From Aphelidium insulamus (Eukaryota; Aphelidiomycota; Aphelidea; Aphelidiaceae): DNA of 64,000 nucleotides. Under the pieces are notes generated by a model. That model did no database searches, had not been told where the DNA came from, and worked only from the letters and a program-made list of their open reading frames with translations. The stretch is taken from contig JAZDSV010000016.1 of assembly GCA_036784855.1 (NCBI GenBank), positions 224,001 through 288,000 of the forward strand, in the 5' to 3' direction. Every line of letters begins with the position of its first letter. The first letter of the stretch is position 1. Positions 31,220-54,920 of the stretch are shown piece after piece. Made by a program: the position numbers and the translations under genes.

Positions 31220-31948
31220 ATGCACTTGTTGTTGCTCGTGCTTGCTGCCCTTCTCTCCACCGCTGCGGCGAGTGCCGTCGCCGTCACCACTTCACCGTCC
31301 TTCCTGGTGCTGCAGGGGGAAGCGGCATCCGATGATCTCGAGCGCGATGGCGGCATCCAAACCATTCACAGCGCTAGCGGCTTACAAAGCCCGCAGTGGT
31401 GCCTGGACCGCTTGGCCGCGGCCCGTGCCAGCTGCAATGCCAAAGGCAAAATCGCCTACATGAACACATGCGTGGTGACGACATCCGCCTCATCCGCCAT
31501 TTCCGGGTGTCTGTCGCCGGACGGAGCGCGGTACAGCAACGACTTTAGTCACAATACCGTGCGTGCCACCGCCAGCTACATCGGCAAGGAGCGCACACGG
31601 CCCTGCGATGGAGTACATGTAATTATTGCGTACCACGGACGGTCGCGCAACGATAGCGACATGGGCGGCACGGCGCAGTGCACACCCGACTCGTCGCTGC
31701 AGTACTTGTTTGACGAGTCGGCACCGGTGCTGAATAACCCCGGTGTGCCGACAAAGTACGACATCAAGCAAGAATGCGCGTACCGAGAGTCCGTGTGCCA
31801 GAACTCGTGCTTCAGCGGCTACGACTTCAAGTGCGGCTGGCAGCCTGTGGTGGAACTGTCGTCCTTTTCGCTTCCAGACCGCGCCGACCCCGTAACGTAC
31901 ACGTGCAATTGCCGCGGTCGTTCCAAGCTCCGCCAGCAGAAGCAGTAG
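31220..31948 (+). CDS. Secreted cysteine-rich protein, member 1 of a local multi-copy family
   Basis: Single exon, 242 residues, with signal peptide LLLLVLAALLSTAAASA. I do not recognise a named domain. The mature protein shares a clear pattern with the genes at 32258 and 54204: WC near the start, a C...K(I/V)A.MN.C block, RYSNDF or similar (Y-x-ND-F/Y), then PCDGV..I.AYHGR. SLQYLFDESAPVLNNPG, PTKYDIKQECA, VCQNSC, FKCGWQPVVELSSF and LPDRADP follow, ending in TCNC. Twelve or more Cys suggest a disulfide-rich extracellular fold. The spacing is conserved across copies, so this is a real family under constraint. Function unknown; a surface or secreted host-interaction role is only a possibility. 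Confidence 0.85.
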   Translation: MHLLLLVLAALLSTAAASAVAVTTSPSFLVLQGEAASDDLERDGGIQTIHSASGLQSPQWCLDRLAAARASCNAKGKIAYMNTCVVTTSASSAISGCLSPDGARYSNDFSHNTVRATASYIGKERTRPCDGVHVIIAYHGRSRNDSDMGGTAQCTPDSSLQYLFDESAPVLNNPGVPTKYDIKQECAYRESVCQNSCFSGYDFKCGWQPVVELSSFSLPDRADPVTYTCNCRGRSKLRQQKQ

Positions 31949-32257
31949 TAGTAGTAGCTGTCTGGCCACTACCGCCACATACTCCGCTCAATTATTATCA
32001 TTGCTTTCATGCCATCTGTTGCCGCGCGTTGCTACTGCTCTCTCAAGTGGTCTTTTTATTGACTGGTAGGCTCCATGGATTTATGCAAACCATACACGTC
32101 CAAGGAACAGCGTGTGCACACCTGTATGCAGACAAGTGACGGCACTCCGACAACACTGTGCATCCATCCTGTTCAGTATGGAACGCGACGCGACGACACG
32201 CCAATTTATATGACAGATGACTGGCGGTGTCACCGTTCCTCCAGCTGCACCGTCCAG

Positions 32258-32854
32258 ATGCACGCACACTTCCAGGTGACAAGTGTCTGCGTACTATTTG
32301 CTGCGGTGGCTGCCCGGCCCGCGCTCCATGCCGTCTCTACCACCAGCAGCGCGATGGTGGGCGGTGCAGCGGGCGCCGAGTGGTGCGGCGGGGCAGTGGC
32401 ACGTCAGCATGCAGTGTGTCTCAGCGAGGGCAAGGTGGCCGCCATGAATGTGTGTGCGGTCGGCGGCACGTTCAGCCGGGCGACCGGGCTGTGCTACCTG
32501 CCAGGCGCTCAGTACGACAACGACTACGGTGTGCCTTCGGTGCAGATCGCCGCCTACTTTGCCGCGCAGTACCGCGACATGCCGTGTGACGGTGTCAACG
32601 TGCTCTCGGTCTATCATGCACGTCTCGGCGACGACGGTGACCGCGTGGTGGGTCTGGCGACACCTCAGTGCTTTCCTCGCGCATCCCTCACTAAGAGTCA
32701 ATCTCTACTGCAATATGTGCTTGACGAGTCGGTCCCGGTGCTGGACACTCCCGGCACGCCCACCAAGTATGACATCGCCGCCACATGTGCCGACCGCAGA
32801 ACCGCTTGCCATCAGCAGTGCGGCAACGGTGTTGTTGGCAGTTTTGCGTGTTGA
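32258..32854 (+). CDS. Secreted cysteine-rich protein, member 2, C-terminus truncated by a deletion
   Basis: 198 residues from ATG 32258, with a hydrophobic leader (VTSVCVLFAAVAARPALHA). It shares with its paralogs GKVAAMNVCAVGG, AQYDNDY, MPCDGVNVLSVYHARLGDD, LLQYVLDESVPVLD and TPGTPTKYDIAATCADR. It stops at GSFAC where the paralogs continue with a WQP motif. Downstream, 32855-32946 still encodes SSFTLPDRPDP and STCDC in another frame, so about 22 nt are missing at 32851-32852 relative to the paralogs. No splice site pair restores phase. It may be a pseudogene, or a working shorter form lacking the last ~30 residues and two to three Cys. It lies ~300 bp after member 1 in the same direction, as a tandem duplicate. 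Confidence 0.7.
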   Translation: MHAHFQVTSVCVLFAAVAARPALHAVSTTSSAMVGGAAGAEWCGGAVARQHAVCLSEGKVAAMNVCAVGGTFSRATGLCYLPGAQYDNDYGVPSVQIAAYFAAQYRDMPCDGVNVLSVYHARLGDDGDRVVGLATPQCFPRASLTKSQSLLQYVLDESVPVLDTPGTPTKYDIAATCADRRTACHQQCGNGVVGSFAC

Positions 32855-32946
32855 GTTCCTTCACGCTGCCGGACCGGCCCGACCCCATTGCATCCACGTG
32901 TGACTGTGCCGCGGCCACTCGGCTGCTGAACCGCCAGACTCTGTAA
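32855..32946 (+). pseudogene. Out-of-frame C-terminal remnant of member 2
   Basis: Encodes SSFTLPDRPDPIASTCDC and a short tail ending at the TAA 32944-32946, the normal C-terminus of the family, but in a different frame from the upstream gene. It shows that the truncation is recent enough for the tail still to be readable. Confidence 0.75.
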
Positions 32947-33037
32947 TATATGTAGATATATATATATATATACATATAGTTGCATAGATGAGCTATAGAA
33001 CTGCACGGCCCAAAAGTGCTTCGAAGTTACTTCATCA

Positions 33038-34086
33038 ATGTGGCCACTGCAAAGACGCTTCATCAGCGCCTGCACCGCGCTGTGGACCAAGGCGCACACC
33101 AAGTGGTCACAGCAGCAGCTGGACACCTTGCTCTCCGCCTACCGTCACCACTTCCCCTCGTCCATACCGCGCAGTGCATGCGGCCGACCACTGGGCGTCT
33201 CGCACCGCGCCACCCGTGAAAAGTGGCGCCGTATCGCCGAGACGGTGGGCGAGGGCCGCACGCCGTTCGCGTGTGCCATGGCTGTGTCGCGTGCGCGTGC
33301 TCGAACTGTGCCGCCACAGGGCAGACAGGGCGACTGGTCGCGCGAGGAGACGGAGCAATTAAAGTGTCTGGTCAAAGAGCTTGGGGCCGGCAACTGGGCC
33401 AGCATTGCCAAGCGCCTTGGTATGTAAATACATATATATATAAGTTATATACACACACACATCTATATACACACAATATATCTGATGATTACTTGTTAGG
33501 GACACGGACACGCGCACAGGTGGCCAATAGAGCACTGCAAGAGAGACTGGAGCAAGAGATTGCCGATGCCGGCCATCAAACTGGGCGCTGGTCCGTCGAA
33601 GAGGATGACCGGCTCTGCCAGGCCATTATAGCCGATATCGACATTCTTGCTCCCGCGCACAGTGACCAGACACAAAAGTTGCTCGATAGGTTCGACACGG
33701 CTATTTGGACGCAGTTGGCGCGGCAAGTACAGACACGCAGTCCGCGCCAGTGCTGGTCTCGCTACTCCACGGCGCAATTCCGGCACAAGCTTCGCCGTGC
33801 CATTGACGCGGACATTAGAGCCAAGAAGAAGGAATCCGAGACTGGGTCGGACTCATTAGAGAATACTGCAATAATTGATGGCCAAACTCCCGTCGTAGCG
33901 GTATCACCAAATTTGTGGTCCATGAAGCAGGCGGAGCGGCTGTCCAAACTGGTGGAGGAGGATACCCGGACATGGATCCAGGTGCAGCAAGAATTTGGGG
34001 GTGGCTACAGCTGGAAACAGCTCAAGGACCGCTATCACTGGGCCAAGGCACAAACAGATGGCAACTGGCCTCCCCGGGATGATTAA
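33038..34086 (+). CDS. Myb/SANT-repeat DNA-binding protein
   Basis: Exons 33038-33419 and 33500-34086; 322 residues. The 80-nt intron is AT-rich. At least three Myb-like helical repeats can be seen. The first is WSQQQLDTLLSAYRHHF with WRRIAETV; the second is DWSREETEQLKCLVKELG with NWASIAKRLG; the third is RWSVEEDDRLCQAIIADI with WTQLARQV and PRQCWSRY. A fourth degenerate one may start at LWSMKQAERLSKLV with YSWKQLKDRYHW. The WxxIAxxLG spacing fits DNA-binding Myb repeats, as in Reb1/TTF1- or SNAPc-type factors, but the subfamily is not clear. The N-terminus (MWPLQRRFISACTALW) is basic and amphipathic, so a mitochondrial form is conceivable. Bounded by the secreted-protein tandem and by caspase-like relics. 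Confidence 0.8.
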
Positions 34087-34104
34087 CTGTGCAAAATGCT
34101 TTTA

Positions 34105-34290
34105 CTTGAGTTGTCCGAGATGTTGCTGAACTTTGGTCAGCTATGTCGTGCTATGGCCTTCATCCAACACTTTGGATGTTGACCGCAACACACTGAGCCA
34201 GAGTCGAAGATAATACGGCCTCGTGCAACTAAATATATATTTATAGGAATTGAATTGCAGCTGTGGTATCCATACTGAGACGTTATATGC
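34105..34290 (+). pseudogene. Decayed 3' end of a second caspase-like gene
   Basis: The stretch ctatgtcgtgctatggcc then cactttggatgttgaccg closely matches the last codons of the intact-looking copy at 35900-35960 (ctatgtcgtgctatggcc, gactttgaatattgaccg). Further right, gaattgaattgcag followed by tgagac resembles 36220-36260 downstream of that gene. The rest of 34290-34865 shows nothing I can identify. It indicates a former tandem copy. Confidence 0.65.
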
Positions 34291-34865
34291 GGTGAGTAGC
34301 GGGTACTGGATCGGTCCGGCCGCCCCGCGGAGCTCGATGCTGATTCAACAGTGCGTTCTACGTGGACGAGTCCTTCATCTTTTGCAGCCACCGAGACATA
34401 AAAACCGACTGATTATAAGACAATTTTGTCTACACAACTCGCTGCGGCTCATGCTGTTTGGCTGCTACAGCAGTGTCGCACCATCGACATCGGTTGCTGG
34501 AATGCAATGCCAGCACAATACAGTGACGAAATTTATCCGGTTGACGGCCAACCTTAACCTTCCGTCTTCCATCCATCGTGGTATCTGTACCGGCACCGGC
34601 ATAAGGCTCTGTCCCGTCGCTGTCTCCGCCTTCTGCTGCTAGCTGCATCCTTAACGGTATTACGTGTGAAGTGACCACGCTATTTCCATTCATCCACAAA
34701 ATTTCCCCGTCGCCGTCGCTGCCGCCTTTTGCCAGCAGCCGCTACTTCTGGCGGCGTCATTTAGGTTTGGATCCGTCGCTCTGTCCGCCTTTTGCAGCCA
34801 GAAGTAAGCGAAACTACGTTGTATATTATGACCGTGACACTTTTGTAGATTTGCGATATACAAAA

Positions 34866-35980
34866 ATGTCTCTACAACAGCTCTTGCGCACTCACTCGCC
34901 GGCCATTCCGAAAGCAGTTAATGCTGACGAAGTGAGAACACATTTGGAGGATGCTATTAAAACTACTCAACGCTCACTCAATGATAAATACGACCAAGTG
35001 GCCATTTTTTGTTGCCACTGGACAACCGACGACACTAAAGCTCATCTTGATTGCGAGCTCTTCAGCCAAACGATGTCGACCATGGCCGCCGAGTGCACTG
35101 AGCGCACTATTTACATTATTTCGGCAGATGACGAATTTGACGACTGGGTTAATGCGTGTCGAACCACCAGGATTACATTGGACAAGTCGAAGCGATCGCT
35201 CTTCATCTTCTTCTACGCTGGCCATGCTACCAAGTCCTCGACGTCAAGTTCACTCATTCTGACAGCATTGTATGAGGACGACGAGAAAGATGAACATTTC
35301 CGGACTCAAAGAAATTTTGCGCGGATCAATGATTATCTCATGGACTCTTCTCGTGACAACCCGCTTATGGATGTTCTCATGGTTGTCGATTCGTGCTGTG
35401 CTTCTGTTGGCGGTCGAGGAGCTTCGATAAGCGGTGGACGGGTCGAGTTTGTCGCCGCGACAACTGAAACAGGAACTGCAAATGCCAGGCAAGACGGTCA
35501 AACATTTACACAAGCATGGTGCGATGCAATAAACAAAATGTGCACGAGTCAGCCAGATTTCACTACGGATGATATGTAAACAAGGTCAATGATGACCCTA
35601 AATTGGCACAGTATCCGCGCTTATTTGTGAAGCACCAAGGACGGGGGCTGCCGATTACATTCTCCAAGTGGCACGATAATGACGAAGTTACTGCTCGACC
35701 TGCAAGACCGACTCATTTGCCGATGGTATTGGTCCCGTTTCATCTTCATGAAAGTCCGAGCGATGATGCGGTCGCCAATCTGGCCAACTATTTGAAGACA
35801 TCCGAGAATCCTGTTTCGATTGTCGGTGCTGTACCTGTTGATTCGACTCTGCTTTTAATCGAGATGCCCGAAATATTGCTGGACTTTCTCCACTTGAATC
35901 GATGCTATGTCGTGCTATGGCCGGTGCCCAAGACTTTGAATATTGACCGAAACATGTGGATTGGGGCCAAGACACACTGA
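34866..35980 (+). pseudogene. Caspase-like (peptidase C14 family) gene interrupted by a one-base frameshift
   Basis: Two overlapping frames, 34866-35579 (237 residues) and 35581-35980, form one caspase-like protein. The first carries a hydrophobic strand plus catalytic His in SLFIFFYAGHA, and the nucleophile Cys strand in VLMVVDSCCAS, followed by VEFVAATTETG and FTQAWCDAINKM. The second continues with LAQYPRLF, the usual end of the fold, and ~120 more residues. The first frame stops at a TAA (35577-35579); one missing base near 35575 would explain the shift. I tried splice pairs around the junction and none restores phase. It could be a recent pseudogene, a sequencing or assembly error, or programmed frameshifting. 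Such proteins belong to the metacaspase/paracaspase-like clan; substrate unknown. Confidence 0.7.
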
Positions 35981-36530
35981 AGCAAATACCACTGCAAAGT
36001 ACGTATGCGTAGAGTTTATTCCTGTTTCATGTCAATGTTAAGTGCGCGCTGACAAGTTTAAAGTGTGTTTTGGCTACTTCTTGTCGCCAGGTCGACGCTG
36101 CGCCATTGGCCATGTGTAATATATATGTATATGTGTGTATCCATCTATATATGTAGACATTGTACGTGGTGCATTAGCGGGCGACGTCTAGGAGCCCGCC
36201 ACCGCCAAGTATATTTTTCTTTGATTTGAATTGCAGGGTGGTGTGCTTATGGAGACATTGTACGTGATAAGATGATTTCAGCCAAGGAGCGTTGTTTTGA
36301 TAATCTGAAAATTTTGGACAACCTCGCGGCTTCTGTCAGCATTCAGCGTGGCAGCGACTCTCATTAATTGGGCCGCCGCGCAGTAATTGACCTGCTTATA
36401 TAAACCCTTGAACCTTAAACTTCGGGGTAGGTTTGAAACCCCCTATTATTCACTGATTATTAGACAGGTCGGAGTTTATTTCGTCTCTTGCTATAGTTCA
36501 CACGTGGCTGTCAGACTACGGCACCCAGCC
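35981..36530. other. Intergenic region, no gene seen
   Basis: 550 bp between the caspase-like gene and the N-glycanase gene. Contains an AT-rich, TA/TG-repeat stretch near 36120-36165, and two near-identical copies of gacattgtacgtg (about 36157 and 36253). No coding frame supported. Confidence 0.5.
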
Positions 36531-38652
36531 ATGGACGACGCCGAGATCCGCGCCATTGCCCGCCGCGTCACCCAGCTGTGGACAGAGCGTGTGGCCACCT
36601 TGTCCTCTTCTGCAAGCGGCCAACGCAACACTGCGGCATTCTTGCAGCGGTTGCGTGACTACTCGGCGCATGTGCAGCGGTACGACAAATGCTGTGCTAT
36701 GCTGTGCTGCTATTACACGTTGTCACTTAATGCGCTTGTGGCAGCTACGAGGAGTGGCCGCTGCAGGAAAAGGCTCTGTCGGTGGTGCCGGTGGACAGGC
36801 TGCATGAAGAGGCACATGCGCTGATGGCCACCGAGCAGGCTCGTCCCGGTATCGCCGCCAACGGACTGTTTGAAGTTTGCCTGGTCAAGCGCCTTTTGCA
36901 CTGGTCAGTTCAATGTCCACGCATGCATATACATACGCATAACAAGACACCTGTGTGCAGGTTCAAGGCGGACTTTTTCAAGTGGGTCAACCAGCCGCCA
37001 TGTCCTCGGTGTGCCGCGGCTACGGTGGGAGCTGGTTCGGCGACTCCCACCGCGCAAGAGCAGCGGCACGGAGCTGGCCGCGTAGAACTGTACAAGTGTC
37101 CGCAGTGCTCACAAGCAGTACGCTTTCCGCGCTACGGGCATGTTCTCGTATCATATTAGCTGTTTAAATCTAATTGGGCAGTGACCCTGCCAAGCTGTTG
37201 GAGACGCGCCAGGGTCGGTGTGGCGAGTGGGCCAATGTGTTCACGTTGCTTTGTCGGGCGCTTGGCTACGAGGTGCGGCATGTGCACGACTGGACAGATC
37301 ATGTCTGGACCGAGGTTTATCTGGAGAATTTGGCGCGATGGGTGCACTGCGACTCTTGTGAGGCCGGCAAGTCTGTAGTGATTTTTTGCATGTTTGTACA
37401 TATAACTGACAAGCATTATTAGCATTCGACGCACCGCTGATATACGAGAGTGGTTGGGGCAAAAAGCTGTCATACGTTATCGCTGTGTCGGGCAAGCATA
37501 TTGACTATCTGTATTTAAGAGTACAGATTAAAATTTGCTGCAGTTGATGAGACGGTGGATGTGACTCGCAGGTACACTGTGCACTATGCCGAGACGGTGA
37601 AGAGGCGCACAGAGGTGCCAGAGCACTGGCTGGCGCAAACAATACTAGCTGAAAACAGCCTTAAATTTGCCTCGTTTGCCGCCGACAAGCAGGCACTGCT
37701 GACAGTGCGCAGGCGGGACGAAGAACGGGAACTGTCTGAGGCAGGTCTGCGCACGCCCTCAGCCGCAGAAGGCATCGGCCGCCAATCGGGCTCGGTGGAG
37801 TGGCGAACGCTGCGCGGTGAAATCGGCCACCTCACCGACGGCAATGTGGATGTGTCGCGCTTGATCACGCAGCGAGTAATATTCGCGCTGGACGGCGAGG
37901 CGGCCAGTCGATCGTCGGAGGCGCTGCAGCTCGTTGGCAGTGCCAAGATGCACAACACTGAACTGATCTTGACGCCGGCGCTCAGGGATCAAGTGGGCGC
38001 CGCGTGGTTGCGCGAGACTGTTTCAACCAGTGCCAGTTTTATGGTGGAGTTCTCGTTCAGAGTGGACAGGGCAGGACAGTCGGGTGGTGCAGACGGGCTC
38101 GCCGTTGTGCTGCAGAGCCAAGGTTCCGGCGAGGTGGGCGAGGGCGGGTGTGGACTCGGCTATCAGGGCATACCCAGGAGGTACATTATACACCGTTGTA
38201 CACCGTTTTGTCTGACCTACTCACATCATATCAGTGTGGCCGTAGAGTTCGACATGTACTGCAGCGCCGACCACTGCAACGATCCGGACGACAATCACAT
38301 CAGTGTGCAGACACGCGGCACCCAGCCCAACTCGGCGCACCACTCGCACTCACTGGCATGCACCACGGCCTCGTCACTACCGCCACTATCATCTGGCGCC
38401 ACTTACCACTCCATGGTGCTGTACAGCCACGACAAGCAGACGCTGTACGTGTACCTCAGTGATGCCAATGCCGGTGACACTGACCGCAACTACCTGCCCG
38501 TGCTGCGTGTGCTCAACTTCAATTTGGCGCGGACCCTGGGCGACTCTGTCAACTGCTGGGTGGGCCTGACAGCGTCCACTGGCGGCCTCAGCCAAGCACA
38601 CATAATCCCATCACTGCGCTGCTGCCTTGTCCGGCGTGGTCCACAACAATAG
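36531..38652 (+). CDS. Cytosolic peptide:N-glycanase fused to a C-terminal L-type lectin-like domain
   Basis: Removes N-glycans from misfolded glycoproteins during ER-associated degradation. Exons: 36531-36679, 36745-36903, 36961-37137, 37182-37366, 37423-37491, 37544-38180, 38235-38652; 597 residues. The transglutaminase-like core has [12 protein letters not shown], Zn-binding CPRC and CPQC, and the catalytic Cys in [13 protein letters not shown]. The His is in [12 protein letters not shown] and the Asp in WVHCDSCE, with [14 protein letters not shown] and DVTRRYT following. After a linker, residues ~400-597 resemble an L-type lectin beta-sandwich: [39 protein letters not shown] and [13 protein letters not shown]. 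Animal PNGases have a PAW domain in this place. Three of six introns need GC donors to keep frame. Confidence 0.93.
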
Positions 38653-38800
38653 ACCATGTAAGCCATAACAAGCACCTGTCTAATCTGTCAAAGAGTGGAA
38701 CTAGGTGATGTCAACTCTTGTTCTCAGTACATAGCAGATAGAAACAACCTACAGAAGAGACACGCACCGAAGAGATAAATCGAAAACAGTTGTATATTGA

Positions 38801-40129: not shown

Positions 40130-40414
40130 GTAATATTCAATGAAGATCAGCGCCAGTAAATCCGCCACGTCTGACACCATCAAAATCACAGTGACATGTG
40201 TGTGAAAAGACTTCTATCTTACATACATAGTTATAGCAAGGCCCATACAGTGCGCACTATGTGCCTGTGCATGTTCCTGTGCATGTGACGTGAGCGCGCT
40301 CCAGATTATGCATCCTCGATCGGCCAATCACCGTTCAATGATGCGATCAAGATGCAGGCAGACGCAAGCTGCAGCACGGTTGGTTCTTGCTCATTTCAGA
40401 AGAAAGATACAAAC

Positions 40415-41559
40415 ATGCTAATATTTGTGCGCTTCCTGTTTTTGGGCCACGCTCTTTCCTCGATTGCCTTCGCTCAACCAAATCTCAGTCTGCCTGCGTC
40501 ATACTTTGACACGTATGTGCCGCAGGGACTAACAAGCAGCTTCCCGCTTACGCCGCCAGAATTGTACATGCAAGAATTCTCGAGGATGTGCATGGCGGCA
40601 CGGGCAGGCGATGCAAAGAGCGTGCAGCAAATGCTGGAACGAGGGATGTCTCACAACAAGCGCGGCATGCGCGATCAACGCCCCATTCATATGGCAATTC
40701 TTGCTGGTGCCAAGGCAGTCGAAACTATTGCTGTTCTGCACGACTACGGCGCAAATCTGGACGCGATTTGGGGCTTCTGGACTCCTCTCTTAATGGCCAT
40801 TGAATTGAATTTGATTGATGTCGTGCAGGAACTGCTTACTTGCGGGGTGGATGTTAATCTTCGTATCAATGGAGTTTTGCCGCCGCTACTCTTTGCGCTT
40901 AATTTGAGACATTGGGACATGGCGGAGCTGCTGATACGGTCGGGTCGAGTGGAGGCTTTTTCGAGCGACGATAACTTACCAACGAAGCGGAAGGCCATCC
41001 ATGCCGCATCATTTGCGGGCCAGTCCAAACTAGTGCAGCTCATGCTGACATACGGAGCAAGCATTACGGCGCAAAATGGTCGTGGAGAGCAAGCTATTCA
41101 TTGTGCGGTTATGGCGCCGGAAAATTCCGTCGCGACGGTCAAAGTGCTGCTAGAAGCCGGCGCTGATCCACTAGCTTGTGTCGGGAAAGCGATTTATCCT
41201 TACGCAACAAGCATCGTAGTAGACGACATATATGTGGACTCGAAGGAACTCGCAAATCTTGAACGCGAATATCAATCTTCCTTGCAACGAAGTGATGGGT
41301 CATCGGCAAGTATTGCTGCAGATCTGCGAAATTTAAAAGTTCGAATTTTAAAAAGTATCAGTCAAACCATTTGCTTCACAAAGGATTGAGCTTTTCGTTG
41401 TCTGGTGCTGATCATGATGGGGATGAGATCATAACGTGTAGAACTGCACTGGATGTAGCGCTTGAAATTCACAATGATGCAGTTACAAATGTATTGCAAC
41501 AAGAAGCTCGACTCAGAGGCTCGAAAGCTGGCGGGTGGCGCAGGAGCAAAACAGTTTAA
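40415..41559 (+). CDS. Secreted ankyrin-repeat protein A
   Basis: Exons 40415-41354 and 41384-41559, 371 residues, if the 29-nt stretch gtatcag...acaaag is an intron; otherwise a one-base frameshift splits the gene. A signal peptide (MLIFVRFLFLGHALSSIAFA) precedes ASYFDTY, a motif shared with protein B (ARYFDTY) next door. At least five ankyrin repeats follow: RPIHMAILAGAKAVETIAVL, WTPLLMAIELNLIDVVQELL, LPPLLFALNLRHWDMAELLI, KAIHAASFAGQSKLVQLML and QAIHCAVMAPENSVATVKVL with LEAGADP. Secreted ankyrin proteins are rare outside pathogens and symbionts; here secretion rests only on the predicted leader. The ATG at 40352 upstream in frame would hide the leader, so 40415 is preferred. Confidence 0.8.
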
Positions 41560-41695
41560 GCTGCTTGCTATTTAAAGGCTAAATAAAGAGCACGACGTTA
41601 ACCAATCATTTGCTTGCATCCATTAGCCAATCATAATTGACACCCAGACATTGCAGTATGCACCCCTGCAAACAAGAATTTGTTCAATCTTTACA

Positions 41696-42901
41696 ATGCA
41701 CCAAAACGCGCTGCTTGCTGCCGGCTTCATCGCCAGCCTGATATCGCTTGTTGTGTGCGTGCCACCGCTCCCTCTCCTCGATGCGCGCTACTTTGATACC
41801 TACTTGGCCTCATCCAAGAACAGTATCGTTTACTGCACTGAATATTGCAGCGAGGCGGTATTGATGGCCGATGCGCACTACGTTTATACAAAATCAGAGT
41901 CTTCCGAGAACGATATTGTTGATTGCACTGAATGCACCGAGGCGGTAATGGTGGCCGATTCGCGCGACATTGGTACATATGCGGTCTCTTCCGAGAGCAG
42001 TATCCTAAAATTCACTGAATGCACCGAGTCGCTGTTGATGACAGCGCGTTACGGATTAGTGCCACAATTGCAAGAGGCACTAGCTGATGAGAAATGTTGT
42101 GCCAGTTGCCTCGGCGCACGTGGTGAGCAACCTATTCATATGGCAGTGTTGGCAAGTGAAAATGCAATTGCCACAATTTCAACTCTGCTGCAAAATGATG
42201 CAAGATTGGACTTGAATGCACTGTGGGGCTACTGGACTCCACTTCACATGTCAATCGCTATGGGCAAGGTTGAAATTGCCCGGTTTTTGATAGATCATGG
42301 GGCGAGTATAGAACGGAAAGGCGGTGTCGCAGACTTGACACCGCTGCAGGCAACACTAAATCTGGACCTGTGGTCACTGGCCAAGTATTTGATAAAAAAG
42401 GGCGCAGATGTTAATGCTCCATACAAGCAGTACGGATACGCACATACAACCCACATGCCCATCAACGTGGCCGCTAGTGCAGGCAAAGCATCTATAGTTT
42501 CTATCATGCTCACGCATGGTGCTAAATTGGAGTCTCGGCGCAATACTGGCGAATTGCCCATTCACGATGCGATAATGGCGGACGAAGGCTCATACAAAAC
42601 TGTCAAGGTCTTACTGGATGCCGGCGCCAGTCCTCGTTCTGTAGTAGGTTTTGCTACTCCTGTGCCATCTGCAGATCAAGATACAACGACGCATGAAATT
42701 CATCTACCAAATGCTCGAATTAAGCACATAATGAGCGATGCAATGCGCCGGAAGTCTCGTTATTTACGGTCCACCGAGATAAAGTCTAATGAATTGACTG
42801 CAATTGACGTGGCAGAGAGATTCCGCAATGTTGAAGTGTTAAACTTGCTTCGCGCGAGACTGCAAGCAGAAAGGAGGTACAGCAGTACAAGATTTCAATA
42901 A
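41696..42901 (+). CDS. Secreted ankyrin-repeat protein B with three internal Cys-rich repeats
   Basis: Single exon, 401 residues. Signal peptide AGFIASLISLVVCVPPLPL, then DARYFDTY as in protein A. Residues ~38-118 hold three copies of a ~30-residue unit: SSKNSIVYCTEYCSEAVLMA, SSENDIVDCTECTEAVMVAD and SSESSILKFTECTESLLMTA; protein A lacks them. Ankyrin repeats follow (QPIHMAVLASENAIATISTL, WTPLHMSIAMGKVEIARFLI, TPLQATLNLDLWSLAKYLIK, MPINVAASAGKASIVSIML, LPIHDAIMADEGSYKTVKVL). The C-terminus has TAIDVAERFRNVEVLNLLRA, equivalent to the end of protein A. Tandem duplicate of A, with a 136-bp gap. A third decayed copy lies at 44690-45250. Confidence 0.87.
   Translation: MHQNALLAAGFIASLISLVVCVPPLPLLDARYFDTYLASSKNSIVYCTEYCSEAVLMADAHYVYTKSESSENDIVDCTECTEAVMVADSRDIGTYAVSSESSILKFTECTESLLMTARYGLVPQLQEALADEKCCASCLGARGEQPIHMAVLASENAIATISTLLQNDARLDLNALWGYWTPLHMSIAMGKVEIARFLIDHGASIERKGGVADLTPLQATLNLDLWSLAKYLIKKGADVNAPYKQYGYAHTTHMPINVAASAGKASIVSIMLTHGAKLESRRNTGELPIHDAIMADEGSYKTVKVLLDAGASPRSVVGFATPVPSADQDTTTHEIHLPNARIKHIMSDAMRRKSRYLRSTEIKSNELTAIDVAERFRNVEVLNLLRARLQAERRYSSTRFQ
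41810..42055 (+). repeat. Three tandem ~90-nt coding repeats inside ankyrin protein B
   Basis: Units start near 41810, 41900 and 41989 with tcatccaag or tcttccgag and share cactgaatgcaccgag or similar. Period about 90 nt, in frame, so they add ~30-residue modules. The third has lost one of the Cys codons. Confidence 0.8.
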
Positions 42902-43843: not shown

Positions 43844-44359
43844 TTATACAGCAGTGAAGCAATGTACCTTGGCGTGACTCGTTGAGCACGGCGGGTCCTT
43901 TTTGAAGTCGTAGGTGTTGGTGACGTCCTTCACCGTGCACTCTTTGGTAAAGAACGTGACATTTGCGCCAATGTTTTCAGTGCACGTGGCCCGGATGTTG
44001 CTGTAACACTTGCCGTCAGCCAAATAGATAATGGAAGACGTCGCCTTGCCCTCCTCACACTTTGGCGATTCAAAAAAAGTGACAGAGAGGTACTTTTTGC
44101 CGGGTGTTAGTTTTCGTGTGGGAGCATACAACGTGGCCGTTTTGTTTTTGCACGTAGTGAACTGCGTTTTCTTGTTGTCGACTAAACATTCGTCGGCGTT
44201 GCAGATGGATGAGTCGGAGCGATAACGCTGTGCCAAGACAACTACACCAGCGCCACACTTTGAGGCTCCCTCAGTGCGCACCAAAGTGATAGCAGCGCGG
44301 TTGTCAATCTGCGCGCTTGCAATACCGGCAAAGATTGCGAGTACAATTGCTGACTTCAT
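43844..44359 (-). CDS. Small secreted cysteine-rich protein
   Basis: Single exon, 171 residues. Clear signal peptide MKSAIVLAIFAGIASAQ. The mature protein has ten or so Cys, spaced as SKCGAG, SICNADECL, TTCKN, PKCEEG, GKCYSN, ATCTEN, KECTV and PPCSTS. Several N-glycosylation sequons (NKT, NVT). It does not share motifs with the CDGV-type family elsewhere in the window, and I recognise no domain. A putative TATA-like tatagttaaaa lies ~55 bp upstream (about 44417). It is embedded between the two halves of the ankyrin/HGH1 duplication, so it may have arrived or been trapped there. Confidence 0.82.
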   Translation of the reverse strand: MKSAIVLAIFAGIASAQIDNRAAITLVRTEGASKCGAGVVVLAQRYRSDSSICNADECLVDNKKTQFTTCKNKTATLYAPTRKLTPGKKYLSVTFFESPKCEEGKATSSIIYLADGKCYSNIRATCTENIGANVTFFTKECTVKDVTNTYDFKKDPPCSTSHAKVHCFTAV

Positions 44360-44689: not shown

Positions 44690-45250
44690 ATGCGACATTG
44701 AACTTGAATGCACTGTGAGGCTACTGGACTCCGCTTCACATGGCAATCGCCATGACAAAGGTTGATTTTGCCAGTTTTTAATACTCCATGGGGTGAATAT
44801 TGACTTAAAGGCGGTGTACGGATACGCACATATTTACAATTCTCATGCCCATCGACGTGGCCGATCGCGCAGGCAGGCCTTCTCTCGTACAACGGCGCCA
44901 AATTGGAGTCTCGGCGCAATTGCTTATTCACGATGCAATTGGCTGATCAAGGTTGACTCGGAATGTCAAAGTTCTACTGGATGCCGGTGCCAATATTACA
45001 ATCCTCGTTCTGCAGTAGTTTCTGCTATGCCATTGCCGTTTGCACATCAAGATAACGTCTCGAATTATTGACATAACGAGCGACTTATTGCCCCGGAACT
45101 CTCGTAATTCATGGTTCACCAAGAAAAATTCAAGGAATTAATTTGAAGAACAACGTGCTCATGACAAAGCAGCGAGCCTATTTTTCAGCAACGCTATCGA
45201 GATATTGACTTCCGCGAGACTGCAAGCAGAAACAGCAATACAAGAATTTA
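44690..45250 (+). pseudogene. Decayed third ankyrin gene, homologous to protein B
   Basis: Aligns to 42200-42900. Shared strings include cttgaatgcactgtg and ggctactggactcc, gtacggatacgcacat, aaattggagtctcggcgcaa and gcgagactgcaagcagaaa. The first Trp codon of LWGYW has become TGA (ctgtgaggc), and several deletions shift the frame. The region corresponding to the signal peptide and Cys-rich repeats is absent. Downstream sequence runs straight into the intact HGH1 gene, as it does in the left copy into the HGH1 relic. Confidence 0.85.
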
Positions 45251-45293
45251 ATAGAAAGCATTTGAATACTCTAATGGAATAGATATCAGTATC

Positions 45294-46555: not shown

Positions 46556-46619
46556 GATGCCGGAGGGAAAAAATTGAAGTCTAATCAATTAAATTTATTA
46601 TGGCGCATTAAAGACTAAA

Positions 46620-48831
46620 CTAGTTTCCGGCATTGTGACTGTGACCCTCATTGCCGGCTACTTCCGGTATGGATACGGGCATTTGGGATTTAATGGCTCC
46701 GGCTGCAGACGCCGACTTGTTCTCCGGACGACCCACGGTGTAATACGAGCCGGCCGTGGAGTCGCTGCCCAGTGATTTGAGCAGACTGTCACGCTCAGCC
46801 AGCACATCGCGCGTCTTCTTGTCATATATCTCCAGCAGCTCGTTGAGGATGGCTTGCATCTTCAGCACGTCCGCCCGCTCCGCCTCCGTGCTGATCTCGA
46901 CCATCTTGTCAATGTTCTTCATGAGATGGCGATGCACCGCGGCCAGGTGCCGCTCAATGTCAATCACCTCCGTGGCCTTGGAGTCCTGAGCGCTTTTACC
47001 GCTCTTGAAGACACCAAACAGCTTGCCTACCGCAGACTTGCCCTCCTTCTTCTTTGGTTTGTTCAGCTCCTCGTCGCTGGCCATGCTGATCTCGTCGACA
47101 AACTTTTTCATGCGGCCAATGTTGGTCTCCACCAGGTAGTTCAATCCCACCATGAACGGCTCCTTTTTGCCGTCGAATGGTGTCATATTGGCCAGCTGCT
47201 GCACCGTCTTGGATATCAGTGTGAGCGTGCGAGCGTTCCTGGCATTTGGTGGCTCGCCGTCCGTCGACAACCCAAACAGTTGTGGTCCTGCACACACAAG
47301 TTATTTTAGACTTTTATATGCATAGAAACTACAGAGACAACACAGACAGACAGACATACCGAGAATGGCAGCGTTAAAGAACCGCAGAAAGATGAAGGCC
47401 GTGACGACGGTGTAGGAAATGTTGGCGTCGCCCTTGAACTTTTGCACGGCTGTGGCGCGGATGTGCTGAAAGGTTCGACGAAGGTGCGGCGGGCACTGCG
47501 GCGCCGATGTCAGAATGCGGTCCAGCGCCCACTTGATGTAGGCCTCGAGCACGGTAAAATGCTCCTCCTTGTCGTCGCCGCTGTCCAGCCGCGTCGGGTC
47601 CAGCTCGCACGAACGGTTCTGCAGCAGGATCTCGGTGATGAGTGGCTGCAGCACGCCCTTCAGGTACTTTATCGCCGTCAGCTTCATGTACTGGTCGATG
47701 GACTTGCTGCCGAGACTGTTTGCACGGAAGATGGTGTTTGGGTCGATTGTGATGGCGATCTCGGCGTCCGCAACCGCCTGCAGATACCGCACCGCCTGTC
47801 CCGAATTCTCGAATATCGTCACCAGAGTCTTGGCCACTTCTTCACGCTCGTCGGTGGCGCGTCCCAGCGCGTGCACCACGTGGAACTGCCCGTCCGACAG
47901 CAGCTCCAGCAGTTTGGGGTAGGTGGAGATGGGCAGGATGTAGTCCTCGACGTACACGTACTTCATCCTGATCTGGCCGAGGGAGCCGCACTGACTGGGC
48001 GCCTGCTGCGCGCACTTTAAGTGGCACATGTAACCGCACGAGGTGCACTTTTGCGCGTCCGTCTGCGCCACCGCGCCCCAGATGAGACCGTGGCACTGTT
48101 CGCACGTGTGCGGCGTGACAATCTTGACCGCGGCAAATTCGTGGCTCTTGGTGGAGCGCTTGGCGTCGTCTCCATCCACGATGGCGGCCAGTTCGTTGTG
48201 TGCCGGCCGGAGTGCGTGCCACTCTTCGTGCGACCGCGAGTCAATGATGAACGAATACTTTGGCAGGCTGACCACGCCCAACAGCTTGTCTTTGATGAGG
48301 TTCTTCTGGTACAGCTCCACTACAGCGATGCCCCCGTGAGCCTCAACACACAGAGCACACTGCATACTAGCACACAGTGGCACCTGCCTGTCAGCTCCTT
48401 AAAGTCGGCCGTCAGCTCAAACTCAAACTCCTCGTCGAACCACGGGCCGGCCGTCTTGACCACGGTCTTGGTCTTGCAGGCGGCCGTGGACACAATGTCG
48501 CCGCCCTTGTTGGCGGTGGAGCGCCGTGTTTTGCGCGCGCTACTCACGCTCTTGGCGTCGGAATCGTCGGAGGCTTTCATGGACACATCGGTGGCACTGT
48601 TGCCAGTGCTGTTGTTGCCACCACCGGTTGCACCTCCTCCGGCCACATTGTTCCAGACCCGCACGCTGCAGTAGGTGTCACACTCGTCGCCGCGGTTGAT
48701 TCCCTTGGCCTCGACCACTTTGAGTGTGACCCCTGCCGCCCACAGACATCAACACTGGCATATGTATAGAAGTGTATGTACATTTACGTACGGTGGTCCT
48801 TGCGTAGTGACTTGGCTGCCACGTCGGCCAT
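46620..48831 (-). CDS. C2-C1-RasGAP protein
   Basis: Stimulates GTP hydrolysis by Ras. Exons in transcript order 48831-48792, 48732-48388, 48319-47360, 47287-46620; 670 residues. A split C2 domain opens the protein (VTLKVVEAKGINRGDECDTY, WFDEEFEFEL, then across the second intron FKELTVELYQKNLIKDKLLG). A disordered insert of ~50 residues lies inside it. Next comes a C1 zinc domain (TPHTCEQCHGLIW, KCTSCGYMCHLKCAQQAPSQC). The GAP domain has the Arg finger in TIFRANSLGSKSIDQYMK and FIFLRFFNAAILGPQLFGL, where the usual FLRxxxPA Pro is Ala. The C-terminus is helical. Intron 48320-48387 must use a GC donor (ACAG then gcaggt) to restore the C2 core. Counterpart of the RasGEF at the left edge. Confidence 0.93.
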
Positions 48832-48959
48832 CAGTGCGGTTCAGTTTACTGCGACTATATGTATAACAAGTAATACAACAAACAAGGGACGACCGCGCTC
48901 CCGTGTCCTAGCGGTGGCGACAAACAGTTGTCAGTGTGCCCTACATACATATGTACATG

Positions 48960-49330
48960 CAATGCAAGTGATATACTAAGTGTGTGACATATGTGTGTAT
49001 ATTCCCTATGCGTGAGTATGCGCGCCTAGTCTGCTTGAATGAGCAGAGAATCCACTTCACGGCAATGGACCTAATTGGGAACTGTCTACGGCGCCGCGTG
49101 AAAGATGAGAGTTCCACGATGGAATACCAGCGACAGGTAAATTTATCCACCCTACTCCATTCGTTGCAGCGCTTGTTGCATTCGTCTTCCATCTTGCAAC
49201 AGAACGCGTCCTTCTCGTACTCGGCGGGCGCGCCCGTCCTGTACAATTAAAAGATGAGGATGCAGTACTGAAATTGAAAGCTCTGGATGAACCGATTGCA
49301 GTCTCGTACGAGGGACCTGCTGAAATGGAA
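48960..49330 (-). pseudogene. Relic of the secreted cysteine-rich family
   Basis: On the minus strand, 49250-49080 reads TGAPAEYEKDAFCCKMEDEC, NKRCNEWSRVDKFTCRWYS and IVELSSFT, matching the C-terminal third of the family (TPTKYD, C..RC, F.C.WQPIVELSSF). An in-frame stop precedes it, and the LPDR segment is degraded to RRRR. Its 3' flank (49010-49062) is nearly identical to 52390-52436 beside the other relic. Confidence 0.75.
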
Positions 49331-49459
49331 CCAAGTGATCCTTCCAAGCCTAAATCCAGGCAACGTTGGCCTTGGACTAAAAGCCGAGCATGGCCTATTC
49401 AAGTTGCTAACGCATAAATCTTAAGATATAAATATATTTACATCATTATAAACATTTTG

Positions 49460-50142
49460 TTAACAGCACATCCACCCCAAGTAAGACTGCAGGATGATCC
49501 GCGCCGACTCAGAGTCCCGGTCTAGTCCGTAACCGTTGCGCACTTTGCTGTCAAATAAAGCAACATGTGCTACTGTGGACCGACGTGCCAGTGTGGTCTG
49601 CTACTAGCGCCACTTGAAGATCGTAGATTCTCTCTTGCAGCTACTGAGGACCGTCTCTCGTCCATCAACAGTACGGGCATTGCCGTCGAGTCCACTCCGG
49701 TCGGGCTCAAAGTTTGAGTGCTCGCATCATTCTGCATGGGCAAGACAGCTGTGAATGCTTCTTGGAGGAAGGCGCGCACATCATCGCATGACGCGGTGTC
49801 ATCACTGCCGTCATTGTCCATCGGCCAGCCCACCACCCAACCGCCTACCCTCCAGGGTGCGGCCCCACTGACCAAACTGCTACCCAGTCCTCCGTAGCTT
49901 TGCCCGGCCAACAGGGTGGGCAGCATGCGCACACAGTCGCGTCGAGCAACGGTGCCAAGGGGACGCGAATGGCGTCTGCCAGCGTCCGACACGGCAAGGC
50001 CAACCCACTTTGTGCCCACGTCCACGCCCAGCAGTAATGGCCGCGCACTGCAAGCTGGCCGCGTGCGCGCTTGCCGATGCAGGCATTGCGTGAACGCGGC
50101 GGCGCTTCGGCTTACGAGCGCGATGCCGTGGCCGCCATGCAT
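49460..50142 (-). CDS. YqgF-type Holliday junction resolvase-like protein, probably organellar
   Basis: Exons in transcript order 50142-49614 and 49572-49460; 213 residues. YqgF/RuvX proteins act in bacterial rRNA processing and DNA resolution. The RNase H-like fold shows LLLGVDVGTKWVGLAVSD with the first catalytic Asp, then GGWVVGWPMDNDGS, and LLMDERRSSVAARE with the Glu/Arg motif. The last conserved helix DSESARIILQSYLG, with the final acidic residue, lies in a second exon joined by a 41-nt intron (49573-49613). Without it the protein ends early. The N-terminus (ALVSRSAAAFTQCLHRQART) is basic and Ser/Ala rich, as in mitochondrial presequences. The gene is bacterial in origin and unusual among well-studied fungi. 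Divergent from the triple-repeat gene over 59 bp. Confidence 0.88.
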
Positions 50143-50201
50143 TAATAAATAACACGGCGTGACCCTGACCGAAGCAGACACAACACAAGCTAATTACACA
50201 C
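50143..50201. promoter_or_regulatory. 59-bp bidirectional promoter region
   Basis: Separates the divergent start codons of the YqgF-like gene and the secreted triple-repeat gene. No motif can be assigned; it holds aagctaattacacac close to the right-hand start. Confidence 0.5.
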
Positions 50202-52120
50202 ATGCTGCTGGCGGCTACTTTTTGCGTGGCGGCCGCGGTGCTGCATGCACCTGGTGTGGTGGCCGGAGATGTCGCGGCATCCTCGGCGGTGGCACAGATG
50301 TCGGCTGCGGTGCCATATATTCCAGTTTTCACCGTGTCGGTGGGAAAGGATATGGTGTGGGATGGTTCGTCCAACGCCACATACATGGTGGACGGCGTGA
50401 ATGGACGCGTACGGGTGGACTATGAGCCACACAGATTTTCCCTATATTATCATGTATGCTCCAGCTGCATTAATGCGCTTATGTATGTAGTAATTGCTTG
50501 TGTTCAGGATTCCGCGTATGATTTTGTGGTGGACGGCGCCGATGGATCGTGCTCGTCGTGGAAGCGTCAAGCGATCAAATGGCAAATCTACACCAATATG
50601 TTCGAGAATGCGACTCTGGCCGGCTCCATGAAGCACAATGGCCGTGTCATGCAGCGCTGGACAATGTTGAAGCCGTGGCTGTATGGAGTAGGTGGTGTAA
50701 ACGAAGACCCAATGGAGTTGTTGGTGGATTCTCGTGGTAACTACGCTGCAATTGCAAGCGGGAGAAGCTGGCCAACAATGTACTATGATATTTACAACTT
50801 TACACGTACGATAAATGAGAGCGCATTCGACTTGGATGGTCTACTTCATTCATGTTCACCGGTTGGCGAACCAAACGTGCCTGAATTCACAACGTTCTTC
50901 CACGATCGCCACCACAACACGACAAAGAAGATTGCAAGATCGGCATATCAGTCGGTTGTCAAGATGACCGAGACCAACAGCCACGGCCAAGAGTACATTA
51001 GCGTGAAGACAAAGGTGAGCTTTGCCTTGAGATTGAAGTTGCAATCGCTAAATTGTGGCCAGAAGAAAAAGTATGAATTCACGACGGCAAATGAGGAACC
51101 CTTTTGTGCCGCATGGCCAATTACTGAAAATGAATGTGACGATGATGTGACGCTATTTGACCGTTCACAGGTGCGATGATTTGGGTGCTGCTTTGCACAA
51201 ATTTTAATGCTATGTACATGCAGTATTATGGATCATTCAATGTGAATGGCCGTCAGCTGCTGATGTGGAAAGACGTGCAGTTATTGATTGACTCGTGGGA
51301 CTGGCATGGTAGCATAATGCTCACCGATGCATCCACGGGGGACTACGTTGCGTTCACGTCCTACCTTCATCCAGATCATTCGGTGAGGAATATTTCGGAG
51401 TATGAACTTACGTTTGAGGACTTTACACAATTCGCCGACTTGTCCACGCCATTACCGTTTGACAAATGCCAACTTCAGTATGACGACAATACCGTGGCAA
51501 ACAGTTTGCTCCGAGAGCAGAAGCCCGTGCCTTTCATTCCTCAATTCACTGCTACGGTAACGCTGCAAGATTCTACTTATAAGTACGCGGTGGATGCTCT
51601 GAATAACCGCGTAAAAGTGGTTTATGGTGAAAAAACCGATTTGTTCCTTCCTATACAAAATTCCCAGGTATGTAAAATTGCTTGTTCATACGGAGCTGAT
51701 GTCAACCTAATTAGATGGCGACATATGATTTCACTTTCGGTCAAGATGACTGTTACTTGTTGCAAGTAAAGTATCAGTGGGATTGCGATATCTTTTCGAA
51801 CGCAACGGTAAGCCCACACGATTATGTAAATTATTCTCTCATATACAAAGTATGCCGGTGAAACCGTATTCCAAGGTCGCAAGGTGGATCGCTGGTTGCA
51901 TGTGCGCGGCCTCGATTGCGGGCCCGTGGTATGGCCTAACCAAGTTATGCTTGTCGATGCCACGAGTGGCGATTACGTGGCCTACATTGAAGGCCCCAAT
52001 GACCCATGGGTGTTTCAAACCATTGAGCGCCGTGTGGCACCTGGAGCATTCGAGCCAGGCATTCCACTGGAGCGCTGTGGACCAATGTGGGCGATGGAGC
52101 GTGACGTAAGGTTTCGCTGA
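50202..52120 (+). CDS. Secreted protein with three tandem ~190-residue repeats (LolA/ependymin-like pattern)
   Basis: Exons 50202-50453, 50508-51170, 51224-51667, 51715-51807, 51851-52120; 573 residues, all introns phase 0. Signal peptide LLAATFCVAAAVLHAPGVVA. Three units each run from IPVFTVSV or FIPQFTATV through a strand of type Y.VD..N.RV.V.Y, a Cys pair, R.V..W, a strand (L)V.D...GDYVA and end in PLE.C or LLHSC. Units begin near residues 30, 225 and 380. Units 1 and 3 have an intron at the same place, after the Y.VD...RVKV strand. The pattern resembles LolA-like/ependymin-type lipid-binding sandwiches known from protist surface proteins, but this is from memory and weak. The final exon may have a further unseen continuation. 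Confidence 0.78.
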
Positions 52121-52440
52121 TTCGTGGGATTTCATATACTTCAATGCAACACAATAATACAGCATCATCACCATAAGAGTGCATGTATGAGTGGTATGAA
52201 TTGTGTATGTGCTGCCCGTTTTGTTCGGCCCCCGTTCCACGCGCGCCACAGCCTCCGTTATATTTCTATCGTCCGTGAAGTGAAGCGACTGTTTGACACA
52301 CCACGCACTCTCTCTCCCTCAAGCACCAATACATCAATCAACCATATGCAATGCAAGAGATATACTACGTGTGTGACATATGTGTATGAGTGAGTGTGCG
52401 CGCCTAGTCTGCTTGAATGAGCAGAGAATCCACTCCACGT
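52121..52440. other. Intergenic region and duplicated flank
   Basis: No gene seen in 52121-52340. From about 52340 to 52436 the sequence matches 48955-49062: gcaatgcaag then gatatactacgtgtgtgaca and cgcgcctagtctgcttgaat then gagcagagaatccact. This is the shared flank of the two relics of the secreted cysteine-rich family. Confidence 0.65.
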
Positions 52441-52469
52441 GAAACGCATCAGCTAGAGGAAGTGATGGG

Positions 52470-53065
52470 AGACCGTCGAGGGCGCAGCGTGAAGGACGAG
52501 AGCTCCACGATGGGACACCAGTGGCAAGAAAACTCGGCTACCCGATTATAGCAGATCTCTGAGCACCTTTTTTTTCTTGTGCACAAAAAACATGTCGTAC
52601 TGAGAGGGCGCGACAGTTAGTGCTGCTGAGAGTGCTGCTCACCACCGGCACAGAGAAGTCGTACACGTACTGCAGCTCCCGTTGGGAATGCATTCCGGCC
52701 CGTGATGACCAATGGTCTCATCAGAGGGATAGTCAATGTGGAAATATTGCGAGCGTGATAAACGGCAAAGAATTCACGCCATCGCATTGTTTGCGGAGGT
52801 ATTCGGTCGCCAGGTCATAGGCACGCTTCACCACCGACTCCTTGAAGTCGTTGTCATAGATGGCGCCACCAGGCGGCACACACCTGCCAGTGGCAGTTGC
52901 CCTGTCGGTGCTAATCCAGCAAACCCCCTTCCACTATGTCCAAGAATACCTGGCACCAATTGCCACCGCTTTTCCCAACAGAGATTGTGTGATCATACCG
53001 CCATCTTGTTCAATGAGAGCCACAGCGTCACTGCCGCGATAAAATTCATTTCAAAATGCACTTAT
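52470..53065 (-). pseudogene. Frameshifted copy of the secreted cysteine-rich gene
   Basis: On the minus strand, in order: a leader-like MNFIAAVTLWLSL, then GGAIYDNDFKESVVKRAYDL and QCDGVN, a frameshift into VYHARN. Another shift follows to ELQYVYDFSVPVVSS and finally PIVELSSFTL near 52510. All these blocks are in family order (Y-x-NDF, CDGV, VYHAR, LQYVFD, IVELSSF). At least two frameshifts and an internal loss make it non-functional. It is the most complete decayed copy. Confidence 0.82.
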
Positions 53066-53099
53066 AAGTGCCAACTATAGTTGGCAAATATTTGGTATG

Positions 53100-54203
53100 T
53101 AAACTGTAGTTCGGGGCACTCTGGAAAAAGGTGTAAACTTAAGGTTTCGGCTGATCGGCATATATAGCAAAGTGTAAAATATAGGTACTACGGTGTAAAC
53201 TCAGTACACCGCCAGCCTTGCAGAGCATTGCGGAGCGTGGCAGGAAAGCAGTGAAGGCGGCACTACGCACTGGTTGCACACGCAGCAGTGCAGAACGTAG
53301 CAGAGTGACGCACATGGAAGTAGTATGACAATGGAGGAACAGAATAGTGGTACGCGGACGTCCCCTTTATATACCTGAGCTGTCGCGCGTCGCGTATGAT
53401 GCACCTTGGCAAAACCTTGGCAAAAATTTGTCGCGACGTGACGCGTCGCGTTGAGTACCGTATCCATAGCGGCACACATGCACGTCAGTGACAGTACGTT
53501 ATGTCAATGTAGGGTGTAATGTGTAACTGCTGAATTTGCTTAATAAGTGAGTGGCTCGCAGTTATTACTCATTGTATGGCGATACACAGTGGCAGCCTCA
53601 CTATAATGAGAAAACATAACCAAAAGTTATATGTAAAGCGCGAAAATAGGAATGCACCGTCTACGGATAGCGCCTTGCAGCTCTGCTCGTTGTAAGACCG
53701 ACCACAAGTATGAAGCAGCAATTGCTCGATATAGATCCATCATTTACAACTATTGTGCTGTAAAATATAAGATGCATCGTCTAATCGTCATCTGCACAAA
53801 GCACAGTTAATTGGTTCCTGCTGCCTCACTTAGCTAGTAATGTATGGAACTGATTGAACGCCAAAATGGCGCTGAAATGCGAGTAGATGCAGCTCTAGGT
53901 GTACCTGCTATAGAGCGCAGCATTTTTTTATGCATCGGCATGAACGGTGGCACTTAGCCGCTGACACACGATGAAACATTGTTTGTTGCGGGTGCCATCG
54001 GTTAAGGCTATCTGAGTAACCTTAGCGGGTGCCATGGGGGTGCCATAGTGACCCGAGCTATCAATCACCTACCAAAGATTGTAAAAGGGTAACTGCCAAT
54101 CAGGACACAGCGAGCGTTGTTTCTGTTTAAAACGAAACGCAGGCGATACGGGACCTCAAACGTTATATTAATGCCTCATTGAGTGATAACTACAGCGATA
54201 CCT
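53100..54203. other. 1.1-kb region without recognisable genes
   Basis: No long frame has codon-like structure or family motifs. Repeated short phrases occur (gtgtaaac at 53131 and 53191, ccttggcaaaa twice at 53404-53424, gggtgccat three times at 53988-54045), suggesting worn repeats. No terminal inverted repeats or tRNA-like structure seen. Confidence 0.5.
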
Positions 54204-54920
54204 TTACAGATTGCTGCTTTGAAAGCGGAGTATTTTGACACAGTCACACGTGGATGAAATGGGGTCGGGTCGGTCAGGCAGTGTGAAGGAACTCAACCCC
54301 ACTATCGGCTGCCAGTCACATGTAAATTCCCCGACATTATCGCTGCCGCACCGCTGATTGCAAGCGATTTTGCGTTCGGCGCATGTGGCGGCAATGTCGT
54401 ACTTGGTGAGCGTGCCGGGAGTGTTCAGAACCGGGACCGACCGGTCAAACACGTATTGCAGCTCTCCGGCGCCGTAGCAATTGTCACCGACAAATCCAAT
54501 ATCACTGAGATAACCATTACGAGCATGATACACCGAGACGATACTCACGCCGTCGCACGGCTGATCACGCAAGCGCAGAGCCAATTCTTCCGCCACGCGC
54601 ACCACGAGCTCACTGAAATCATTGTCGTACTTTGTGTCGTTGGCGGCGAAGCAGAATCCCGACGAGAAACTGCTGTCATTGCCCACACCACAGACGTTCA
54701 TTGCGGCTACCAAACCCTGTCCCAGTGCCATGCAATCTGCTTGACGTTTGGATAGACTATTTTCGCACCACGCCACTCCGTCCGCGCCAGACAGAGAAAC
54801 AGTCAACGTGGTCACGTCTACGGTCAGCGGACCGTGCCCGTCAGCCGTCTGTTGAGACAAGAGCGGGTGCGCTATGACCGTGGCAGCAGCGACAAGCGCG
54901 ACGATTGCCGTGACCAGCAT
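54204..54920 (-). CDS. Secreted cysteine-rich protein, intact member 3 of the family
   Basis: Single exon, 238 residues, with signal peptide MLVTAIVALVAAATVIAHP. The full family pattern is present: VAWCENSLSKRQADC, GLVAAMNVCGVGND, TKYDNDFSE, QPCDGVSIVSVYHARNG, ELQYVFDRSVPVLNTPGT, TKYDIAATCAERKIACNQRC, FTCDWQPIVGLSSFTLPDR and STCDC near the end. Most similar to member 2 (32258), and it shows what member 2 lost. It lies 20 kb away and in opposite orientation, so the family is dispersed as well as tandem. Function unknown. It is divergent from the UPRT gene. Confidence 0.87.
   Translation of the reverse strand: MLVTAIVALVAAATVIAHPLLSQQTADGHGPLTVDVTTLTVSLSGADGVAWCENSLSKRQADCMALGQGLVAAMNVCGVGNDSSFSSGFCFAANDTKYDNDFSELVVRVAEELALRLRDQPCDGVSIVSVYHARNGYLSDIGFVGDNCYGAGELQYVFDRSVPVLNTPGTLTKYDIAATCAERKIACNQRCGSDNVGEFTCDWQPIVGLSSFTLPDRPDPISSTCDCVKILRFQSSNL

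Follow-up and report, generated by a model that had tools for sequence, protein, structure and literature searches.

A probably undescribed multi-copy family of cysteine-rich proteins in the genome of Aphelidium insulamus

A stretch of 64,000 nucleotides from the genome of Aphelidium insulamus (assembly GCA_036784855.1, contig JAZDSV010000016.1, forward-strand positions 224,001 to 288,000, or G000:C64:224001-288000 in our notation), hereafter the window, contains copies and relics of a multi-copy family of cysteine-rich proteins. A sequence-only reading of the window had described three coding copies and two relics sharing an ordered set of motifs, had credited the proteins with signal peptides and had taken the loci for fast-turning surface or effector genes. 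We compared these loci with the whole genome (17,953,404 bases in 169 contigs), with known domains and with predicted structures. Within the window, the family is represented by the following features:

31220..31948, plus strand: copy 1, intact, 242 amino acids (aa), with a hydrophobic N-terminus, 12 conserved cysteines, YHGR, DESAPVL and a C-terminal CxC
32258..32854, plus strand: open reading frame (ORF) of copy 2, with the modules through the last FxC, then TGA past a point where 22 bp present in copy 3 are missing
32809..32925, plus strand: C-terminal module of copy 2 (LSSFTLPDR...CDC), in a different frame
49064..49255, minus strand: relic 1, the C-terminal module only, with the final CxC gone
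52401..52987, minus strand: relic 2, both modules in pieces with several stops and frame changes, YHAR still readable
54204..54920, minus strand: copy 3, intact, 238 aa, with a hydrophobic N-terminus, 12 cysteines, YHAR, DRSVPVL and a C-terminal CDC

The copies at 31220 and 54204 are the only intact ones in the window, and both are without a C-terminal membrane helix. Copy 2 is not full-length as assembled; in alignment with copy 54204 its DNA is without 22 bases directly past the last F-x-C, and this loss shifts the frame, brings in the TGA and leaves the conserved C-terminus (SSFTLPDR...CDC) out of frame. Two of the three copies first taken as coding thus stand, and the third does not. Both relics exist on the minus strand with their stops and frame changes, at the revised coordinates given above; the DNA similarity of relic 1 to relic 2 continues to 48957, and the two lie in the same orientation and share 75% identity at the DNA level across an alignment of 198 columns. 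By eye, both are nearest to a membrane-anchored subfamily (C42 and C64:12.7 kb) and not to the three named copies. The motifs were found in the order proposed, running WC, C, MNxC, YxND, CDGV, YHxR, LQYxFDxSxPVL and PTKYD, followed in the C-terminal part by CxxR...C...C, F-x-C-x-W...SSF..PDR and C-x-C, although an element given earlier as C..RC is better written C-x6-C-x3-C.

Genome-wide, the family occupies at least 21 loci in 17.95 Mb, extending beyond the 24-kb stretch in which it was first noticed. Loci were counted from six-frame matches with stretches merged by hand, and the counts are lower bounds:

Intact ORF (10 loci): window 31220, window 54204, C126, C41, C117 (two), C42, C137, C149 (two)
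One lesion (6 loci): window 32258, C56, C85, C92, C64:12.7 kb, C37:9.9 kb
Remnant (5 loci): window 49 kb, window 52.5 kb, C37:7.1 kb, C129, C86

The locus on C137 is called intact on its cysteine region only, its C-terminus being undefined; at C37:9.9 kb the second TAA was taken as the natural stop; and on C86 fragments of the two ends remain and the middle is missing. Searching the genome with copy 54204 returned 25 matching stretches, and queries with L026, L017 and L018 returned 14, 24 and 24 respectively, although two of the 24 for L018 are its membrane tail alone, in other proteins. Copy 54204 is 61% identical to a paralogue on a different contig (E 4.6e-80), which together with its 25 stretches excludes chance similarity. 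The original observation is hence partly confirmed: the family is real, with the corrections noted, its copies lie both in tandem and dispersed, and broken copies are frequent, at 11 of the 21 loci as assembled.

Alignment of the ten intact proteins (A3) places 12 cysteines in register in every one, so that the cysteine spacing seen in the window stays conserved as more members are added; cysteine content is about 4-6%. The cysteines are arranged in two modules, A and B, each with the pattern C-x6-C-x3-C...C...C-x-C, separated by an insert of approximately 90 residues that carries two invariant cysteines, Y-H-x-R and D-x-S. Gaps between successive cysteines are near fixed, at 6,3,11-13,9-10,1 in module A and 6,3,7-24,21-23,1 in module B. 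Module B is complete in all ten proteins, whereas module A is complete in three and has four of its six cysteines in the remaining seven. The extra pair in module A (the 13th and 14th cysteines) is present in L024, L026 and L032 and absent from the other seven, with no protein having one alone. Joint presence and absence is what would be expected of a single disulfide, although the three carriers form one clade (support 100/99, with a warning from the tree program of long branches) and the co-occurrence may therefore reflect one event. The pair corresponds to C2-C5 in the CS-alpha-beta scheme C1-C4, C2-C5, C3-C6.

Scans of the ten intact members, the copy-2 ORF and three family consensus sequences found no Pfam family at or above its cut-off, and there was no PDB sequence match at E < 0.76, in keeping with the initial reading, which recognised no named domain. 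No homologue was found among 5.8 billion proteins; a true DUF7707 protein from the same genome, run as a control, was likewise without a match, and since the database therefore looks poor in relatives of this genome, this negative says little about any restriction of the family to one lineage. By sequence comparison the family is most likely undescribed, and it is without established membership of either DUF7707 or CS-alpha-beta. The AF2 model of copy 54204 has a helix at residues 45-65 with strands at 73-79 and 84-91, and a second helix at 176-191 with strands at 195-203 and 221-229; module B modelled alone gave a helix at 25-40 and strands at 44-52 and 70-78, with ten-residue confidence means of 57-86 over residues 21-80. 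At low confidence, each module may be a helix followed by two strands (alpha-beta-beta); the low-confidence models had no fold match in the PDB.

Outside the modules, Y-H-x-R and D-x-S are invariant in the ten intact proteins, as is an F...R pair near the end. YHxR can be read in 17 of 19 loci, a set that leaves out two of the remnants; the two loci without it have multiple lesions. Such conservation might suggest a secreted enzyme, for example a nuclease or hydrolase, with its active site formed by Y-H-x-R and D-x-S and the cysteine modules serving as bracing only, and one glutamate of the C-terminal module, kept in at least 90% of the aligned intact proteins, could be added to the invariant Y, H, R, D and S. 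We consider this improbable, however, given the lack of a Pfam match over cut-off or a useful PDB match in the searches above, and of a second invariant histidine among the alignment columns of the ten proteins.

Two known groups invite comparison: the two-module pattern is similar to the signature of CS-alpha-beta proteins and, weakly, to fungal DUF7707. The AtDEF family of defensin-like proteins (PF25052) and the scorpion toxin-like family (PF00537) are both members of the CS-alpha-beta superfamily. Its cysteine order, C...C-x3-C...C...C-x-C, is present in module B of all ten proteins and in module A of three, and the predicted secondary structure of a helix and then two strands fits its helix, which bears C-x3-C, and its hairpin, which bears C-x-C, albeit in low-confidence models without a fold match. 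The family differs in having two modules within a protein of 240 aa, larger loops and anchored forms. Profile similarity is slight: AtDEF-like aligned with module A at E 0.27-0.37, and Toxin_3 with module B at E 0.087-0.46 and with module A of L032 at E 0.89, scores no better than those of chance matches to unrelated families. Neither Pfam cut-off was reached (13.5 bits against 21.5 for Toxin_3, 12.0 against 25 for AtDEF-like).

DUF7707 (PF24808), a fungal cysteine-rich secreted domain, is represented above the Pfam cut-off by two genes in this genome, L048 (C64:136.6 kb) and L049 (C132), with cysteine gaps of 6,3,8,8,1,20,6,3,10,3,5 and 6,3,10,8,1,22 respectively. By eye, L048 also has a hydrophobic C-terminal tail of the glycosylphosphatidylinositol (GPI) signal type. 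Both genes show C-x6-C-x3-C-x(8-10)-C-x8-C-x-C, which resembles module A of our proteins, and L048 has a second C-x6-C-x3-C; this second module ends 10,3,5, whereas gaps in the anchored clade of the family run 6,3,11,9-10,1 and then 6,3,9-24,23,1, and DUF7707 is without the insert bearing Y-H-x-R. Compared with DUF7707 (6,3,8-10,8,1), the first, second and last gaps of the first module are equal and the middle gaps longer in the three proteins with all six cysteines, the other seven having four of the six. Residues 39-74 of L010, a stretch that holds the first cysteines, align with profile positions 11-43 at E 0.2. Kinship with DUF7707 is possible. In another reading, the proteins would be structural components of a wall or cyst coat, elaborated in this lineage from a DUF7707-type scaffold by placing an insert between the two modules, and would have no host-directed role. 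That reading, which shares export and fold with the one we favour below and differs in function, is supported by the two DUF7707 genes, the similar gaps and the L010 alignment, yet the best DUF7707 score reaches 12.3 bits where the cut-off is 23, and does so in one of the nine members of A1, with no match in L032 or in the three consensus sequences; an hhalign comparison was unconvincing, with a probability of 36.7% for a two-sequence profile over residues 1-60, which are partly signal peptide. On balance, we think a purely structural role unlikely.

All ten intact proteins have a hydrophobic N-terminus, the best N-terminal 11-residue hydropathy mean being at least 2.23 in each. The signal peptides claimed earlier are thus borne out as hydrophobic N-termini at 31220 and 54204, and it is from hydropathy that we infer export. 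The family looks divided into two forms, one soluble-looking, whose members end shortly past the last C-x-C, and one with a C-terminal membrane helix, at least four intact members appearing anchored. Hydropathy places such a helix at the C-terminus of L018, L026 and L032 (19-residue means of 1.55-2.95), although the L032 value of 1.55 is near that of an internal stretch of L017 (1.52); in L024 a similar helix lies, by eye, just past the aligned end, and no such helix occurs in the aligned part of the remaining intact proteins of A3.

The nearest relative of L018, at C64:12.5 kb, has one stop, and the tails of both match two neighbouring large ORFs at 47-55%:

C64:180.8-186.2 kb: L088 and L089, a tandem pair (815 and 875 aa) in which repeated units are visible by eye and Pfam gives no domain over cut-off

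Used as query, the tail of one of these large ORFs recovered four genes at E < 1e-10 and, weakly, a 1908-aa open frame on C150 (E 0.010) and C92:84.6 kb (E 0.036). The membrane tail is common to four genes, so one tail is found across two unrelated ectodomains.

Selection is purifying on average over the three closest pairs of family members, with ratios of nonsynonymous to synonymous divergence (dN/dS) of 0.38, 0.35 and 0.44 at dS 0.78-1.33 (Nei-Gojobori, pairs with a proportion of nonsynonymous differences, pN, below 0.42 only), averages that carry no information on single sites. Of the fast turnover envisaged by the sequence-only reading, gain and loss of copies is probable; these values bear no mark of fast adaptive change. 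In general kind, the family resembles the expanded secreted cysteine-rich families of plant-pathogenic fungi, which combine export (here predicted), high cysteine content and copy-number turnover. The multiple tandem and dispersed copies, many of them broken, with their hydrophobic N-termini and abundant cysteine, would also suit secreted effectors delivered to an algal host and evolving under conflict, the more so as aphelids are described as parasitoids of algae (PMC10608142). Such effectors would act inside or on the host, a difference from the explanation given next, which they otherwise overlap. The dN/dS values and the anchored appearance of at least four intact members speak against them, and we think this reading unlikely.

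Our preferred explanation, to which we give about an even chance, is that these are disulfide-braced recognition proteins, secreted or held at the surface, under birth-and-death turnover. The 12 invariant cysteines would form six disulfides, with a seventh pair in module A of the clade that has two extra cysteines. The proteins would be located at the surface of the cell or cyst, or released from it, in a flagellated, fungus-like organism that perhaps parasitises algae, and their binding partner would be an algal wall, the organism's own wall or another cell. Shape would be kept by the module cores, and specificity might come from the variable loops that surround the insert's invariant motif; soluble and anchored forms could interconvert through loss or exchange of the anchor, and copies would be gained and lost by birth and death. 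More speculatively, and in our estimation unlikely as a whole, a lineage of algal parasites branching near the root of Fungi may have built its own surface or secreted recognition family from two CS-alpha-beta-like modules and a new Y-H-x-R insert, presenting the ectodomain in anchored and soluble forms and trading tails with large repeat-built surface proteins, as a counterpart of variable surface-antigen families. The likelihoods given here overlap from one explanation to the next and need not add up to one.

As part of an aphelid genome, the family offers a concrete and countable candidate for the molecules used by the sister group of Fungi in encounters with its algal host; to our knowledge, few such candidates are known. 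The cysteines that are present or absent as a pair predict a disulfide that can be tested directly, the common tail predicts a location that can be tested likewise, and kinship with DUF7707, if true, would trace that uncharacterised domain back to a deeper ancestor. In zoospores, 120 of the 589 genes with high expression are reported to be specific to A. insulamus (PMC11767097).

The window has a G+C content of 52.85%, and nearby ORFs encode RasGEF, RasGAP, bHLH, polysaccharide deacetylase, TRAPPC13 and legume-type lectin domains. The genome also contains a p25-alpha gene, as expected of flagellated lineages (PMC10057920). Several other ORFs in the window have hydrophobic N-termini by eye: two adjoining ORFs at 40289-42898 (plus strand), the first with ankyrin repeats and the second alike by eye, which would be unusual if they are indeed exported ankyrin proteins; a cysteine-containing ORF of 171 aa at 43844-44359 (minus strand), with no Pfam match at E 0.01; and ORFs at 50202-51769 (plus strand) with a repeated unit, VPYIPVF... 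or VPFIPQF... (by eye), the first of which has no Pfam match at E 0.01. Finally, a GCN1-like gene at 17534-23633 (plus strand) has in-frame stops that lie, by eye, inside short introns of 3n length and that are easily mistaken for stop-codon reassignment.
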